Below the pieces are notes generated by a model. That model was not told the DNA's origin. It was given only the letters and a program-made list of their open reading frames with translations, and did no database searches. The translations under genes were made by a program, and so were the position numbers. From Roseomonas sp. OT10 (GTDB lineage: Bacteria > Pseudomonadota > Alphaproteobacteria > Acetobacterales > Acetobacteraceae): 64,000 bases of DNA. Each line of letters starts with the position of its first letter. Positions within the stretch are counted from its first letter, which is position 1. The stretch is from assembly GCF_020991085.1 (NCBI RefSeq), contig NZ_CP087719.1, positions 2,500,001 to 2,564,000 on the forward strand, given 5' to 3'. Of this stretch, positions 5,522 through 55,063 are shown one piece after another.

Positions 5522-5662
5522 GCCGGAGGTCATCGACCTCCGGCGCCGCGATGCCGGTGCAGCCTGCCGCGCGGCAGCGCCCCTCGGGTCCAGGGCTCGC
5601 AGAGTCCTGGCGGATGAGGGGTATCGGGGAGAAGGCAGGGCCTTCTCCCCGGGCCACGGGGA
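5522..5662 (-). repeat. Three-hairpin intergenic element, copy 1
   Basis: Copy 1 of a 129-nt element (5522-5650 plus a conserved 5' flank to 5662), read on the minus strand and starting a few nt after the ilvC stop. In reading order: hairpin 1 is 5650-5640 with 5636-5626 (11 bp, perfect); a 15-nt spacer follows; hairpin 2 spans 5610-5590 with inner arms CTC/GAG around TGC; a 9-nt spacer follows; box GCGCTGCCGCGCGG lies at 5580-5567; a 22-nt spacer follows; hairpin 3 is 5544-5535 with 5531-5522 (10 bp, perfect, GAT loop). Beyond it on the same strand lies another 7-bp hairpin (5446-5462). Copies 2 and 3 have identical spacing and compensatory arm changes. The rest of 5391-5668 shows nothing else. 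Confidence 0.85.
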
Positions 5663-5668
5663 CGAGCC

Positions 5669-6685
5669 TCAGTTCTTCGCCTTGTCCACCAGGGCGTTCT
5701 TCTTGATCCACGGCATCATGTCGCGCAGCTTCTCACCGACCTCCTCGATCGGGTGCTCGGCGAGGCGGCGGCGGGTGGCCTTGAAGGACGCCTGGTTGAC
5801 CCGGTTCTCCAGCATCCAGTCGCGGGCGAACTTGCCCGACTGGATGTCGTCCAGCACGCGCTTCATCTCCGCCTTGGTGGCCGGGGTGATGATGCGGGGA
5901 CCCGTCACGTACTCGCCGTACTCGGCCGTGTTGGAGATGGAGTAGTTCATGTTGGCGATGCCGCCCTCGTAGATGAGGTCGACGATCAGCTTCACCTCGT
6001 GCAGGCACTCGAAATACGCCATCTCGGGGGCGTAGCCGGCCTCGACCAGCGTCTCGAAGCCCGCCTTGATCAGCTCGACCAGGCCGCCGCAGAGCACGAC
6101 CTGCTCGCCGAACAGGTCGGTCTCGCACTCCTCCTTGAAGGTCGTCTCGATGATGCCCGAGCGGCCGCCGCCGACGGCGGAGGCGTAGGAGAGCGCGATC
6201 TCCAGCGCGTTGCCGGACGGGTTCTGCGCCACGGCCACGAGGCAGGGCACGCCGCCGCCCTTCTGGTACTCCGAGCGCACGGTGTGGCCCGGGCCCTTCG
6301 GCGCGATCATGAAGACGTCGAGGTCGGGGCGCGGGTCGAGCAGGTTGAAGTGCACGTTCAGCCCGTGCGCGAAGGCCAGCGCCGCGCCTTCCTTCATGTT
6401 GGCGTGCAGCTGCTCGCGGTACAGGTCGCCCTGGCCCTCGTCCGGGGTCAGCACCATCACCACGTCGGCCCACTTCGCCGCCTCGGCGGGGGACATCACC
6501 TTGAAGCCGGCCGCCTCGGCCTTCTGCGCGGAGCCGCCCGGGCGCAGGCCGATCACGACCTCCTTCACGCCGGAATCGCGCATGTTCTGCGCATGGGCAT
6601 GGCCCTGGCTGCCGAAGCCGATCACGGCGACCTTCTTGCCCTTGATCAGGTTCACGTCCGCATCGCGGTCGTAATACACGCGCAT
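5669..6685 (-). CDS. ilvC: Ketol-acid reductoisomerase (class I)
   Basis: 338 residues, the normal class I length. It converts acetolactate or acetohydroxybutyrate to the dihydroxy acids of the valine/isoleucine pathway using NADPH and Mg2+. The Rossmann motif [17 protein letters not shown] lies near residue 23, [13 protein letters not shown] near 128, the metal-binding [14 protein letters not shown] near 188 and the second-domain [13 protein letters not shown] near 226. Start is ATG 6685 with GAGAGGA upstream. It is the last gene of a minus-strand ilvB-ilvN-membrane protein-ilvC group and is followed immediately by element copy 1. Confidence 0.97.
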
Positions 6686-6784
6686 CCTAGCGTCCTCTCT
6701 TTGGTTCGGCGGATGGGTTCAGCCGCGCGGCGTCGGTGCCGGCGGAATGGGGGTGGCGCAAGGGGCGGCCGGCATGGCGCGCCC

Positions 6785-7312
6785 CTAGAGGAGACGGAAC
6801 ACGGCGGCGGCGAGCAGCAGCACGCCCATCGCCGTGAAGAGGGAGAACAGGCCGACCCAGACCCTCTCGTGGTCGAGCAGGCCGAGCGGGGCGCGGCCCT
6901 GGACCTCGCGCCGGACAGCCTCCTGCACCGGCAGCAGCCGGGCATGGCCGTCCTTCGCGAACTCCGCGTCGAGCATCGCCAGATAGGCGAAGGCGGTCTT
7001 GGAGAAGATGCGGTAGCGTTCGTAGTTGCGGATGGTGAAGACCAGACCGACGAGCCCCACCAGGGTCAGCGCGGCGGCGATGCCCGCCTCCAGCCGCGGC
7101 GCGGTGAGCGGCGTCGCCTCGCGGAGCTGCACGCCGAACAGCGCGACCAGCGCGGCACCGAGGGCGAGCAGCGCCGCGGAGACGCTGACCCGCAGCGTCT
7201 CCTGGTGCCGCGCGATCGCGCTGGCTTCCAGCATGATCTTGATCACCGCCTCGACATAGGCGGCGCGTCCGATCCGCTCGCCCTCGCCCTTCCGGTCGCC
7301 GCCGTCGCTCAT
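6785..7312 (-). CDS. Hypothetical membrane protein inside the ilv group
   Basis: 175 residues, about three membrane helices: residues about 43-63 (VSAALLALGAALVALFGV), 75-93 (IAAALTLVGLVGLVF) and a C-terminal one near 155-174 (LFSLFTAMGVLLLAAAVF). The cytoplasmic or interhelical stretch carries NYERYRIFSKTAFAYLAMLDAEF. It lies 15 nt downstream of ilvN and 99 nt upstream of ilvC, in the same direction, so it is probably cotranscribed with the branched-chain amino acid genes. I do not recognise a family, and nothing in the sequence says whether it has a metabolic role. Confidence 0.7.
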   Translation of the reverse strand: MSDGGDRKGEGERIGRAAYVEAVIKIMLEASAIARHQETLRVSVSAALLALGAALVALFGVQLREATPLTAPRLEAGIAAALTLVGLVGLVFTIRNYERYRIFSKTAFAYLAMLDAEFAKDGHARLLPVQEAVRREVQGRAPLGLLDHERVWVGLFSLFTAMGVLLLAAAVFRLL

Positions 7313-53259: not shown

Positions 53260-53267
53260 GACGCGGG

Positions 53268-54827
53268 TCAGCGGCGGGTGGCGTTGATCGCCAGCGTGTA
53301 GCCATCCGTGCGCGGGCGATAGGCGACGCCCGGGCCGGTGGCGCAGCTGTTGGCGAGGAAGAAGAGCGGGATCACCCCGTTCTCGCCCATGGCCAGGCGC
53401 GTCGCCTCCTGCAGCAGCGCCTCGCGCCGCGCATCCTCCACGGTGGCGAGCGCCTCGCGCAGCAGCGCGTCGAAGCGCGGGTTGGAATAGCGGCCGCGAT
53501 TGCCCGAGCCGTCGCCGCGCGCCGGGTCGTAGGTGGCGAGCAGCGGCCGCAGCACGGAGGAGGCCTCGCCCGTCTCCGCCGCCGCGCCGCCCATGATGAG
53601 GCTGTAGTCCAGCGCGCTGGCGCGGGTGAAGAAGACGCTGCCCGGCTGTGCCACCAGTTCGGTGCGAATGCCGATGCGGGTGAACATCTGCGCCAGCGCC
53701 TGGCCGATCTTGGCGTCGTTCGGATAGCGGTCGCTGCTGACGTGCAGCGTCAGGCCGAAGCCGTCCGGCAGCCCCGCCTCGGCCAGCAGGCGGCGGGCGC
53801 GGGCGGGATCGGCCTTCGGCGCGGCGAGGCCGGGGACAGCACCGAAGGTGCCGTCGGGCACGAGCTGCCCGGCCGGGGTCCCCTGCCCGTCCATCACCCG
53901 CGCCACCAGCGCGTCGCGCGCGATGGCGAGCGACAGAGCCTCGCGCACGCGCGGGTCGCGCAAGGCGTTGGCGATGGGCTGGCCGTCCTTGCCGACCACG
54001 AAGGGGCTGCGCTCGCGGTCCTGGTCGAGGTGCAGGTACATCACCCGGTTGGAGGGGCCGGAGGCGATGGCGACGCGCTCGTTGCGCTCCAGCTGGGCAA
54101 TGTCGGCGCTCGGCACCGACTCGATCATGTCCACGTCGCCCGAGAGCAGGGCGGCGATGCGGGCGGAGTTGTTGGTCATGAAGCGGAAGGTCACCCGCTT
54201 CCAGGCGAGCGGCGCGGCGTCCGGCTGCGGCTCCGCCGCCTCCGCCTCCACCCGGTCGCCGGGGGCGTAGCGCAGGAAGCGCAGCGGCCCGGTGCCGATC
54301 ATCGAGGCGCCGGCGTTGAAGCTGTCCGTCTCCGCCGTCTCCAGGCCCCGCGGCAGGATCGCGATGCGGCTGAGCATGTTGGGCAGCAGCGGATAGGGCT
54401 CGGCCGTGCGCAGGCGGATCGTCGCCGCGTCCACCACCTCCACCGCCGTCACCGGGCGGATGAAGGGCAGGAAGGAGGAGGGGCTGTTCTTCACCTGCGG
54501 CACCCGGCGCAGGCTGGCGGCGACGTCCTCCGCCTCCACCGGGCGGCCGTCGTGGAAGCGCAGGCCGGGGCGCAGGCGGAATTCCCAGACGGTGGGCTCC
54601 ACCGCGCGCCAGCTGTCGGCCAGGCCCGCGACGATGCGCTGGCTGTCGTCCTGGTTCACCAGCCCGTCGAAGAAGTTCCGGGCAAGCGCGCTGTTCGAGC
54701 CGATGACGTGGAAATGCGGGTCCAGCGAGGTGACGTTGGCCCCCAGCCCGATGCGCAGCTCCTGCGCCGATGCGCCCGACACCGTCGCGAGCAGCGCCAC
54801 GGCCGCCCCGGTCACGATCCGCCGCAT
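53268..54827 (-). CDS. Peptide-type ABC transporter substrate-binding protein (start of nucleoside hydrolase operon)
   Basis: 519 residues. Two ATGs are close: 54833 lies 1 nt from AGGAGG, whereas 54827 has a 7-nt spacing and is chosen. [20 protein letters not shown] then AQ is a signal peptide. The SBP_bac_5 body contains [58 protein letters not shown] and [19 protein letters not shown]. It heads the minus-strand group with the nucleoside hydrolase and DapA-like genes. No permease or ATPase accompanies it. Confidence 0.88.
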
Positions 54828-54922
54828 GGCCATTCCTCCTCCGTTCGCGGCGCTTCTATCCCCGCAGCGAGAGGGACGGAACCCGGGAGGCGGCTGGGCC
54901 TGCCGACCCGTCGCGGCGTGGT

Positions 54923-55063
54923 GCCCGTGGCCCGGGGGCAAGGCTCTGCCTCGCCCCCGGTACCCCCACTCCGCCAGGACACTGCGTGCCCTGGACCCGG
55001 GGGGCGCTGCCGCGCGGCGGGTTTCGTCGGGGTCGCGGCGCCGAGGAGCATGGCTCCTCGGCG
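54923..55063 (+). repeat. Three-hairpin intergenic element, copy 3 (interrupted downstream)
   Basis: Copy 3, plus strand. The conserved 5' flank is at 54923-54933. Hairpin 1 is 54934-54944 with 54948-54958; hairpin 2 is 54974-54994 with inner arms CAC/GTG; box GCGCTGCCGCGCGG lies at 55004-55017; hairpin 3 is 55040-55049 with 55053-55062 (ATG loop). The 129-nt core and spacers 15, 9 and 22 match the other copies. The part of the element shared with copy 2 after hairpin 3 (GGCCCCGGCAGGGGAGGG) resumes only at about 55201-55218, after a 117-nt insertion. It lies between a start codon and the 3' end of the M32 gene. Confidence 0.85.

Follow-up and report, generated by a model that had tools for sequence, protein, structure and literature searches.

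A MITE-like element family of Roseomonas sp. OT10, very probably transposable, with mirrored double hairpins and many insertions at stop codons

In a 64,000-nt stretch of the genome of Roseomonas sp. OT10 (contig NZ_CP087719.1, positions 2,500,001 to 2,564,000; hereafter the window), an earlier note had described a 129-nt intergenic block with three hairpins as a family of three copies. We found that this block is real but is an internal fragment of an element of about 418 bp, and that the genome carries more than 200 copies instead of three. The element has terminal inverted repeats, a 3-bp target duplication, a short length and a high copy number, which are the features of a miniature inverted-repeat transposable element (MITE). 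It is therefore very probable that we are dealing with a MITE-like family of non-autonomous DNA transposons, presumably moved in trans, with insertions often seated at stop codons. We regard it as a new family within a class of elements already known; its choice of target is unusual, and part of its interior is widely shared.

The copy number was taken from the exact hairpin-2 pattern CCGCCAGGRNNNTGCNNNCCCTGGACCC, which has 203 matches (95 + 108) in the OT10 genome (5.69 Mb, three contigs), while the reversed control had no match in the same 5.69 Mb; the element is far more abundant than expected by chance. Further copies that lack the exact hairpin-2 pattern were picked up through their termini. 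When 33 and then 73 copies were aligned with their flanks, conservation spanned 418 consensus columns, with TACGGACGGCGGGATGC at the left end and CATCCCGCCGTCGGTA at the right end, and no comparable conservation was seen outside the two termini. Complete copies range from 405 to 448 bp, which is too short for a full transposase gene. The left terminus is TACGGACGGCGGGATG, and the right terminus is the same sequence on the opposite strand with small changes. Read on that other strand, the right end starts TACCGACGGCGGGATGACCTGACCCGT, compared with TACGGACGGCGGGATGCGCTGATCCGT at the left, with agreement at about 17 bases and weaker agreement further inward, indicating that the element ends in terminal inverted repeats. 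A plasmid search with the 129-nt core of one window copy (copy 2, listed below) as the query gave no match.

The triplets just outside the ends are mostly TGA or TCA, and those on the two sides of one copy agree. In a set of 73 copies selected without regard to their termini, both ends could be recognised in 45; these carried TCA/TCA in 20 cases, TGA/TGA in 9, TGA/TCA in 1, TCA/TGA in 0, and other triplets on one or both sides in 15. The two triplets were thus identical in 29 of these copies, whereas 20,000 permutations gave 15.7 on average and never more than 26. A larger set was formed from 118 profile hits, of which 69 were complete copies after partial hits and repeats had been dropped. 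Here TCA/TCA occurred 24 times, TGA/TGA 17 times, TGA/TCA 3 times and TCA/TGA 0 times (Fisher p=1.7e-9), with identical border triplets in 41/69. Part of this set had been fetched by a pattern containing TSA (S being C or G) on one side; a pattern that holds TSA on one side only cannot make the two sides agree. Taken separately, the 43 copies whose loci had been selected independently of the termini gave 18, 9, 1 and 0 for the same four classes (p=1.4e-6), and the remaining 26 gave 6, 8, 2 and 0 (p=0.007). The base before the triplet is C in 44/69 copies and the base after it is G in 50/69, indicating that the target is the palindrome C-TSA-G. What flanks the element is thus a duplicated 3-bp target, either TGA or TCA, within C-TSA-G.

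These targets often coincide with the ends of genes. Genes were called with a codon-usage script trained on the window, where it placed 55 genes covering 89% of the sequence. All 69 complete copies were intergenic, and the 68 copies with genes called on both sides lay between convergent genes in 50 cases, tandem genes in 18 and divergent genes in 0; for comparison, the 54 adjacent gene pairs of the window comprise 8 convergent, 38 tandem and 8 divergent pairs. The border triplet coincided exactly with a neighbouring gene's stop codon in 43/69 complete copies (at the left border in 23, at the right border in 20), and in 30 of the 41 perfect duplications. This exact coincidence is a fact. Because the codon is duplicated, an insertion at a stop codon is silent: the protein stays intact and the element lies directly 3′ of the stop.

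In relatives, the upstream side of two such sites is seen without the element. In OT10 one copy starts right after the stop codon of a gene that we take to be ftsK and another after that of a presumed urtE-like gene, both names coming from the C-terminal sequences rather than from a family search. In 14/14 same-genus relatives ftsK ends with DD and a stop codon (13 TGA, 1 TAG) and no element is found there; at one relative locus (L281) an element copy lies about 750 bp beyond the end of ftsK. The same holds for urtE-like genes in 12 relatives, which finish at a comparable stop codon and lack the element at that point; two weaker hits (L306 and L307), probably paralogues, stand outside these 12.

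The interior of the element is symmetrical as well. From the left, hairpin 1 is followed by ACCCCC, hairpin 2 (CCAGGACCCTGCGGGCCCTGG) is followed by ACCC, and then comes hairpin 3. On the opposite strand, the right half again contains a hairpin GGGAGGGGAC/GTCCCCTCCC, the foot AGACCCTCCCC, and a second hairpin GCCGGGGCC.../...GGCCCCGG, followed by TCCCC. Read from both ends, the consensus therefore has mirrored termini and mirrored modules, with two double-hairpin modules (hairpin-ACCC-hairpin-ACCC) oppositely oriented around a third hairpin. Since the modules face each other, a transcript arriving from either side would meet a like double hairpin. Against 100 dinucleotide shuffles each, the consensus folds with a z of about -6 and the 129-nt block of copy 2 with a z of about -2.5. 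We then aligned 18 hairpin-1-and-2 modules from the OT10 genome, two other same-genus genomes and one metagenome-assembled genome (MAG) of the Acetobacteraceae. In this alignment 7/20 pairs had changed on both sides (0/500 shuffles as high), and 91.3% of cells were paired, compared with 83.1% in shuffles (0/500 as high), and no slid version exceeded 56.6%. A check for an already catalogued RNA family gave no Rfam match at gathering score across the whole window, the best sub-threshold match on copy 3 having E=0.55; in 18 related loci Rfam matched a tmRNA and a glycine riboswitch only, both away from the module. At two loci of the same genus, L039 (genome G012) and L049 (genome G004), both mirrored modules keep the exact hairpin-2 match, on opposite strands.

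A covariance-model search, which the earlier note had proposed as a check, finds the module of hairpins 1 and 2 in relatives. The model of hairpins 1 and 2 (R1) matched 14/15 genus genomes searched (OT10 included) and 29/120 relatives overall at E<=0.01, the other 15 belonging to other genera of the same family; as 43 candidates were scored per genome, the per-genome counts are lower bounds. The exact hairpin-2 form occurred in 5/60 relatives (G000 207, G003 55, G004 67, G012 45, G033 1). In OT10 a terminus pattern found 70 sites when up to 1 mismatch was allowed, and a similar pattern gave 10 scattered hits (1-2 mismatches) in 14 other genus genomes, where the reversed control gave 2. This difference suggests a recent expansion in the OT10 genome. 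In R. mucosa (43 loci, 45 matches aligned) both modules are conserved and the termini eroded, the left-terminus motif being found in 1/45 and the right in 0/45.

The module is also found far outside the family. A cross-phylum scan with the exact hairpin-2 pattern, one genome per species, returned at least 119 stretches; among the matches listed, 43 were from R. mucosa and 76 from other organisms. The matches listed include Desulfovibrio, another Desulfovibrionaceae MAG, Streptomyces, Amycolatopsis, Magnetococcales, Anaerolineae, Dictyobacter, a Synergistaceae bacterium, Acetobacteraceae MAGs and one FCPU426 MAG. The likeness might reflect convergence among GC-rich sequences or selection by the exact pattern, rather than descent or shared function, and we put the chance of this somewhat below even. 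The second hairpin was itself part of the query pattern, so that its presence speaks for such an effect. Hairpin 1 and the foot, in contrast, lay outside the search pattern. After removal of duplicates and of matches too near an edge, hairpin 1 was in place in 45/56 non-Roseomonas matches and in 17/21 organisms among the matches listed, against 39/833 control GCCAGG sites in the same loci, although copies within one genome are not independent in the count of 45/56. Four of the 21 organisms lack hairpin 1 (Streptomyces F-525, Streptomyces Ru71, FCPU426 and Magnetococcales nWRX1), as convergence would allow.

The differences in termini point in the same direction. Desulfovibrio Ct408 carries a MITE-like repeat of 222-299 bp with terminal repeats of its own, CAGCAATTCTNATT, in which the first double hairpin is followed by GGGGGTCC-hairpin-GGCGGGGTCC-hairpin, that is, by the mirrored module again. 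Both termini were recognisable in 10/37 matches, and 3 of these 10 (L159, L175, L178) had perfect 9-bp duplications (GTTATCGAC, GACTGCCCC, GATCGGCCC), with 8/9 bases agreeing in a fourth (L219). With duplications of 3 bp in Roseomonas and 9 bp in Desulfovibrio, the two elements differ in target size and have unrelated termini, but their interior design is the same. In the Magnetaquicoccus copies the module is present, and a mirrored second module was not seen in the aligned stretch. Several Streptomyces species (L131, L183, L187, L188, L198 and others) carry a recurrent unit that reads CCGCCCCTACCCGTCCCATCC-hairpin-GACCCC-hairpin-ACCCC, followed by a variant of GGCCTCGTCCTCAAACGCCGGACGGGCTG. 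Distant phyla thus share a double-hairpin part that lies outside Rfam, which hints at a common function as yet without a name. Tentatively, and with a chance that we consider low, the element could be a mobile 3′ untranslated region (3′-UTR) cassette that prefers stop codons, regenerates the stop and offers a double-hairpin tail to either side. The module would then be a part shared across phyla (Proteobacteria, Desulfovibrionaceae, Actinobacteria, Chloroflexi, Synergistaceae). Since two or more MITE-like elements carry it between termini that are not related, it would be of use, as RNA or DNA, independently of the transposase.

The helper would be a DDE transposase with a 3-bp target, perhaps of the IS5/IS1031 type. 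Targets of the IS1031 group have the form TNA, and the 3-bp target expected of an element mobilised by IS5/IS1031 was found here (TSA in C-TSA-G). Recognition of a three-nucleotide insertion site is a common feature of IS1031-group elements, according to excerpted text of PMC2516522. The likeness to this group of the IS5 family lies in target size, and no insertion sequence with the termini of the element was found in the OT10 genome among eight PF13586 loci and the terminus hits listed. As no autonomous partner was found, it is the target size by itself that points to the transposase; a MITE need not always have such a partner, since its helper may have been lost. PF13586 has 24 matches in OT10 (G000). 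Twelve of them share one score and a frame of 285 aa, and of these twelve, nine lie on the 286-kb contig C2 and the rest on C1. One PF13586 locus (L098) is bounded by inverted repeats GGCTCTACGGACAAG, which are unlike the element ends except for TACGGAC. At another locus (L094, 1226-1483 and 1501-1755) a PF13586 transposase match adjoins an element fragment (profile 153-412).

Several observations weigh against the transposon reading or narrow it. Gene context and stop-codon counts depend on gene calls from our own codon-usage script. Non-coding TSA sites, weighted by neighbours, are already stop codons in 35% of cases, against which 30/41 gives p=8e-7; for plain CTSAG sites the figure is 45%, and p is then 2e-4. 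Split by gap type, stop codons were found in 21/28 convergent gaps against 48% expected (p=0.004) and in 9/12 tandem gaps against 50% expected (p=0.08). The target pentamer and selection against other sites thus explain much of the stop-codon coincidence, and a modest additional preference for stop codons beyond the target sequence is likely. As for the empty sites, they are seen from one side only: no relative's locus contained the stretch that follows the element in OT10. Some R1 matches are single and weak (e.g. G005, G015, G027, G060, G072). Among the own-genome terminus hits listed (100 of 115), no autonomous element was found; the 40 loci at terminus-like hits comprised 37 element copies, three of them partly absent or broken (L113, L114, L248), one truncated copy (L105) and two terminus-like sites with no element (L100, L102). 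Likewise, 8/24 PF13586 loci held three single weak terminus-like matches and no terminus pair. Of the five covariation measures, one did not exceed the shuffles: further pair types were at least as numerous in 94/500 of them. The compensatory arm changes that the earlier note took for maintained structure stand, with relatedness as one alternative explanation and DNA-level palindrome correction, which could also make the arms change together, as another.

With these points taken into account, we propose that a DDE transposase using a 3-bp target moves the element in trans, with the IS5/IS1031 group as the nearest candidate, and that insertions would survive where they are silent, mainly at stop codons and in convergent gaps. 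For whichever neighbouring gene reads in, the mirrored modules would most likely provide a folded 3′ tail; such a tail would explain why paired arms change together. A 3′-UTR role is possible and fits both the stop-codon position and the two-way symmetry. What appeared to be an RNA family is thereby turned into a clear mobile element, and its position beside genes is explained. Insertion at a stop codon with duplication of the codon would be a simple and harmless way to fill a gene-dense genome, through which many genes gain a new, alike 3′ end.

We considered whether the element is instead primarily a structured cis-regulatory or 3′-UTR RNA, spread by ordinary duplication, with the terminal repeats forming an outer RNA stem. 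The compensatory pair changes, the strong folding of the whole unit, the site directly 3′ of stop codons and the presence of the same module in unrelated phyla would all suit such an RNA. However, the element lies in both orientations relative to the gene that it touches, as the 23 left and 20 right stop codons show, and TSA on both sides is a signature of transposition that RNA function does not predict; we therefore regard this account as unlikely. It is also compatible with the preferred transposon reading, since an RNA of this sort could be part of a transposon.

It is improbable that the element is an intrinsic (Rho-independent) terminator that acts in both directions and recurs between convergent genes. 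It would match the 50/68 convergent placements, the GC-rich hairpins and a short T-rich stretch in the centre of the consensus, but ACCC rather than a T run follows hairpins 1 and 2, and the target duplication is left unexplained. Moreover, no GC hairpin with a T run was found in the one locus scanned (L079, 1300-2100), which does not bear out the termination option of the earlier note and also counts against our own reading.

The earlier note had further suggested a REP-like (repetitive extragenic palindrome) mobile element linked to a RAYT-like transposase, of which the multicopy, mobile and palindromic nature and the frequent position just 3′ of genes stand, and the RAYT/REP type does not. 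A REP/BIME/REPIN-type element moved by a RAYT (Y1 HUH) transposase is hardly credible, despite the high copy number, the extragenic position, the palindromes in opposed pairs and the short, constant ACCC foot of the hairpins, which recalls the tagged REP ends described in sections of PMC3733652, since the genome has 0 Y1_Tnp (PF01797) matches at E<=0.001 while 5/14 control genomes are positive, and since the element has long terminal inverted repeats as well as target duplications; mobilisation by RAYT was rejected for this genome.

Among known systems, bacterial MITEs (Correia/NEMIS, RUP, MITEAba12, Chunjie) are likewise short and non-coding, with terminal inverted repeats, target duplications and many copies. 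The same signature of termini and duplication is described for MITEAba12 in excerpts of PMC6382973, and features of bacterial MITEs for comparison are given in parts of PMC2229807 and PMC10969869. The Roseomonas element differs from known MITEs in being about 418 bp long and GC-rich, with two mirrored double-hairpin modules and a TSA target that is often a stop codon. In the available portions of PMC2229807 and PMC6382973, stop codons appear only in connection with frames inside elements or with truncations, and the term 'stop codon' is absent from the available text of the MITE review PMC10969869. REP, BIME and REPIN sequences are also palindromic, extragenic and arranged in opposed pairs, but the Roseomonas element has true terminal repeats and duplications, is about ten times as long as a REP and resides in a genome in which no RAYT was found. 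Extracts of PMC3733652 state that the CGTC class of repeats is missing from the Acetobacteraceae. Two multicopy repeat families of other genomes, EFA-1 and Pae-1, have a predicted double hairpin according to a survey of stem-loop families (PMC2267715, main text); they are alike in this respect, as compared by description only, and Desulfovibrio and Streptomyces do not occur in that main text. In the literature searched, largely without subscription journals, we found no description of this repeat, of the module or of a stop-codon-aimed MITE.

The three window copies and their neighbours are as follows.

5481..5663, minus strand: copy 1, element fragment (profile positions 41-224 of 418; nhmmer E=1.5e-26)
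5522..5650, minus strand: copy 1, 129-nt block, from sequence and alignment (hairpin 1 5650-5640/5636-5626; hairpin 2 5610-5590; hairpin 3 5544-5535/5531-5522)
5669..6685, minus strand: ilvC, upstream of copy 1 (Pfam domains KARI_N, KARI_C)
32113..33648, plus strand: gpmI, upstream of copy 2 (Pfam domains iPGM_N, Metalloenzyme)
33647..33809, plus strand: copy 2, left part, directly 3′ of gpmI, left terminus not recognised (profile 26-187; nhmmer E=2.2e-45)
33675..33803, plus strand: copy 2, 129-nt block, from sequence (hairpin 1 33675-33685/33689-33699; hairpin 2 33715-33735; hairpin 3 33781-33790/33794-33803)
33805..33944, plus strand: copy 2, right part (profile 303-414; nhmmer E=1.7e-17)
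54901..55297, plus strand: copy 3, nearly complete (profile 17-409 matched at 54901-55288; nhmmer E=1.7e-96)
54934..55062, plus strand: copy 3, 129-nt block, from sequence (hairpin 1 54934-54944/54948-54958; hairpin 2 54974-54994; hairpin 3 55040-55049/55053-55062)
55298..55300, minus strand: TCA at the right border of copy 3, which is the TGA stop codon of the M32 carboxypeptidase gene (sequence, gene calls, Pfam)
55298..56794, minus strand: M32 carboxypeptidase gene (gene calling and Pfam)

Copy 1 is sited between ilvC and a converging SBP_bac_5 gene, and neither of its termini was recognised. Copy 2 has suffered an internal loss, with about 115 profile positions absent between its left and right parts, and its right end is CATCCCGCCACCGGGG, followed by TCA. 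The right end of copy 3 (55297) was set by extension to profile position 418; its left border is not recognisable, so the right-border triplet is the only one that can be read for its duplication.

The positions, strands and 129-nt lengths first described for the blocks were borne out, and the three copies align gap-free with a mean column identity of 86% over 169 columns including flanks. All three contain the three hairpins and the shared box GCGCTGCCGCGCGG; as a general form the box does not hold, being found in only 10/73 aligned copies of the OT10 genome. The inner arms of hairpin 2 are CTC/GAG, CCC/GGG and CAC/GTG, as had been reported. The quoted arms of hairpin 1 are present but include one A.C mismatch in copies 2 and 3, and in the hairpin 2 arms CCAGGA/CCCTGG, also present, the last A faces C and is unpaired in 18/18 aligned sequences. 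A start about 20 nt beyond a stop codon describes copy 1 (18 nt) but not copy 2, which lies farther away (26 nt). Domain matches confirmed the names of the two upstream genes, ilvC (KARI domains) and gpmI (iPGM). Beyond copy 2, a 581-aa frame lies at 33983-35728 on the minus strand; at E<=1e-10 Pfam matches it with PTS_IIB alone, over residues 128-217, which is unusual for a protein of this length.

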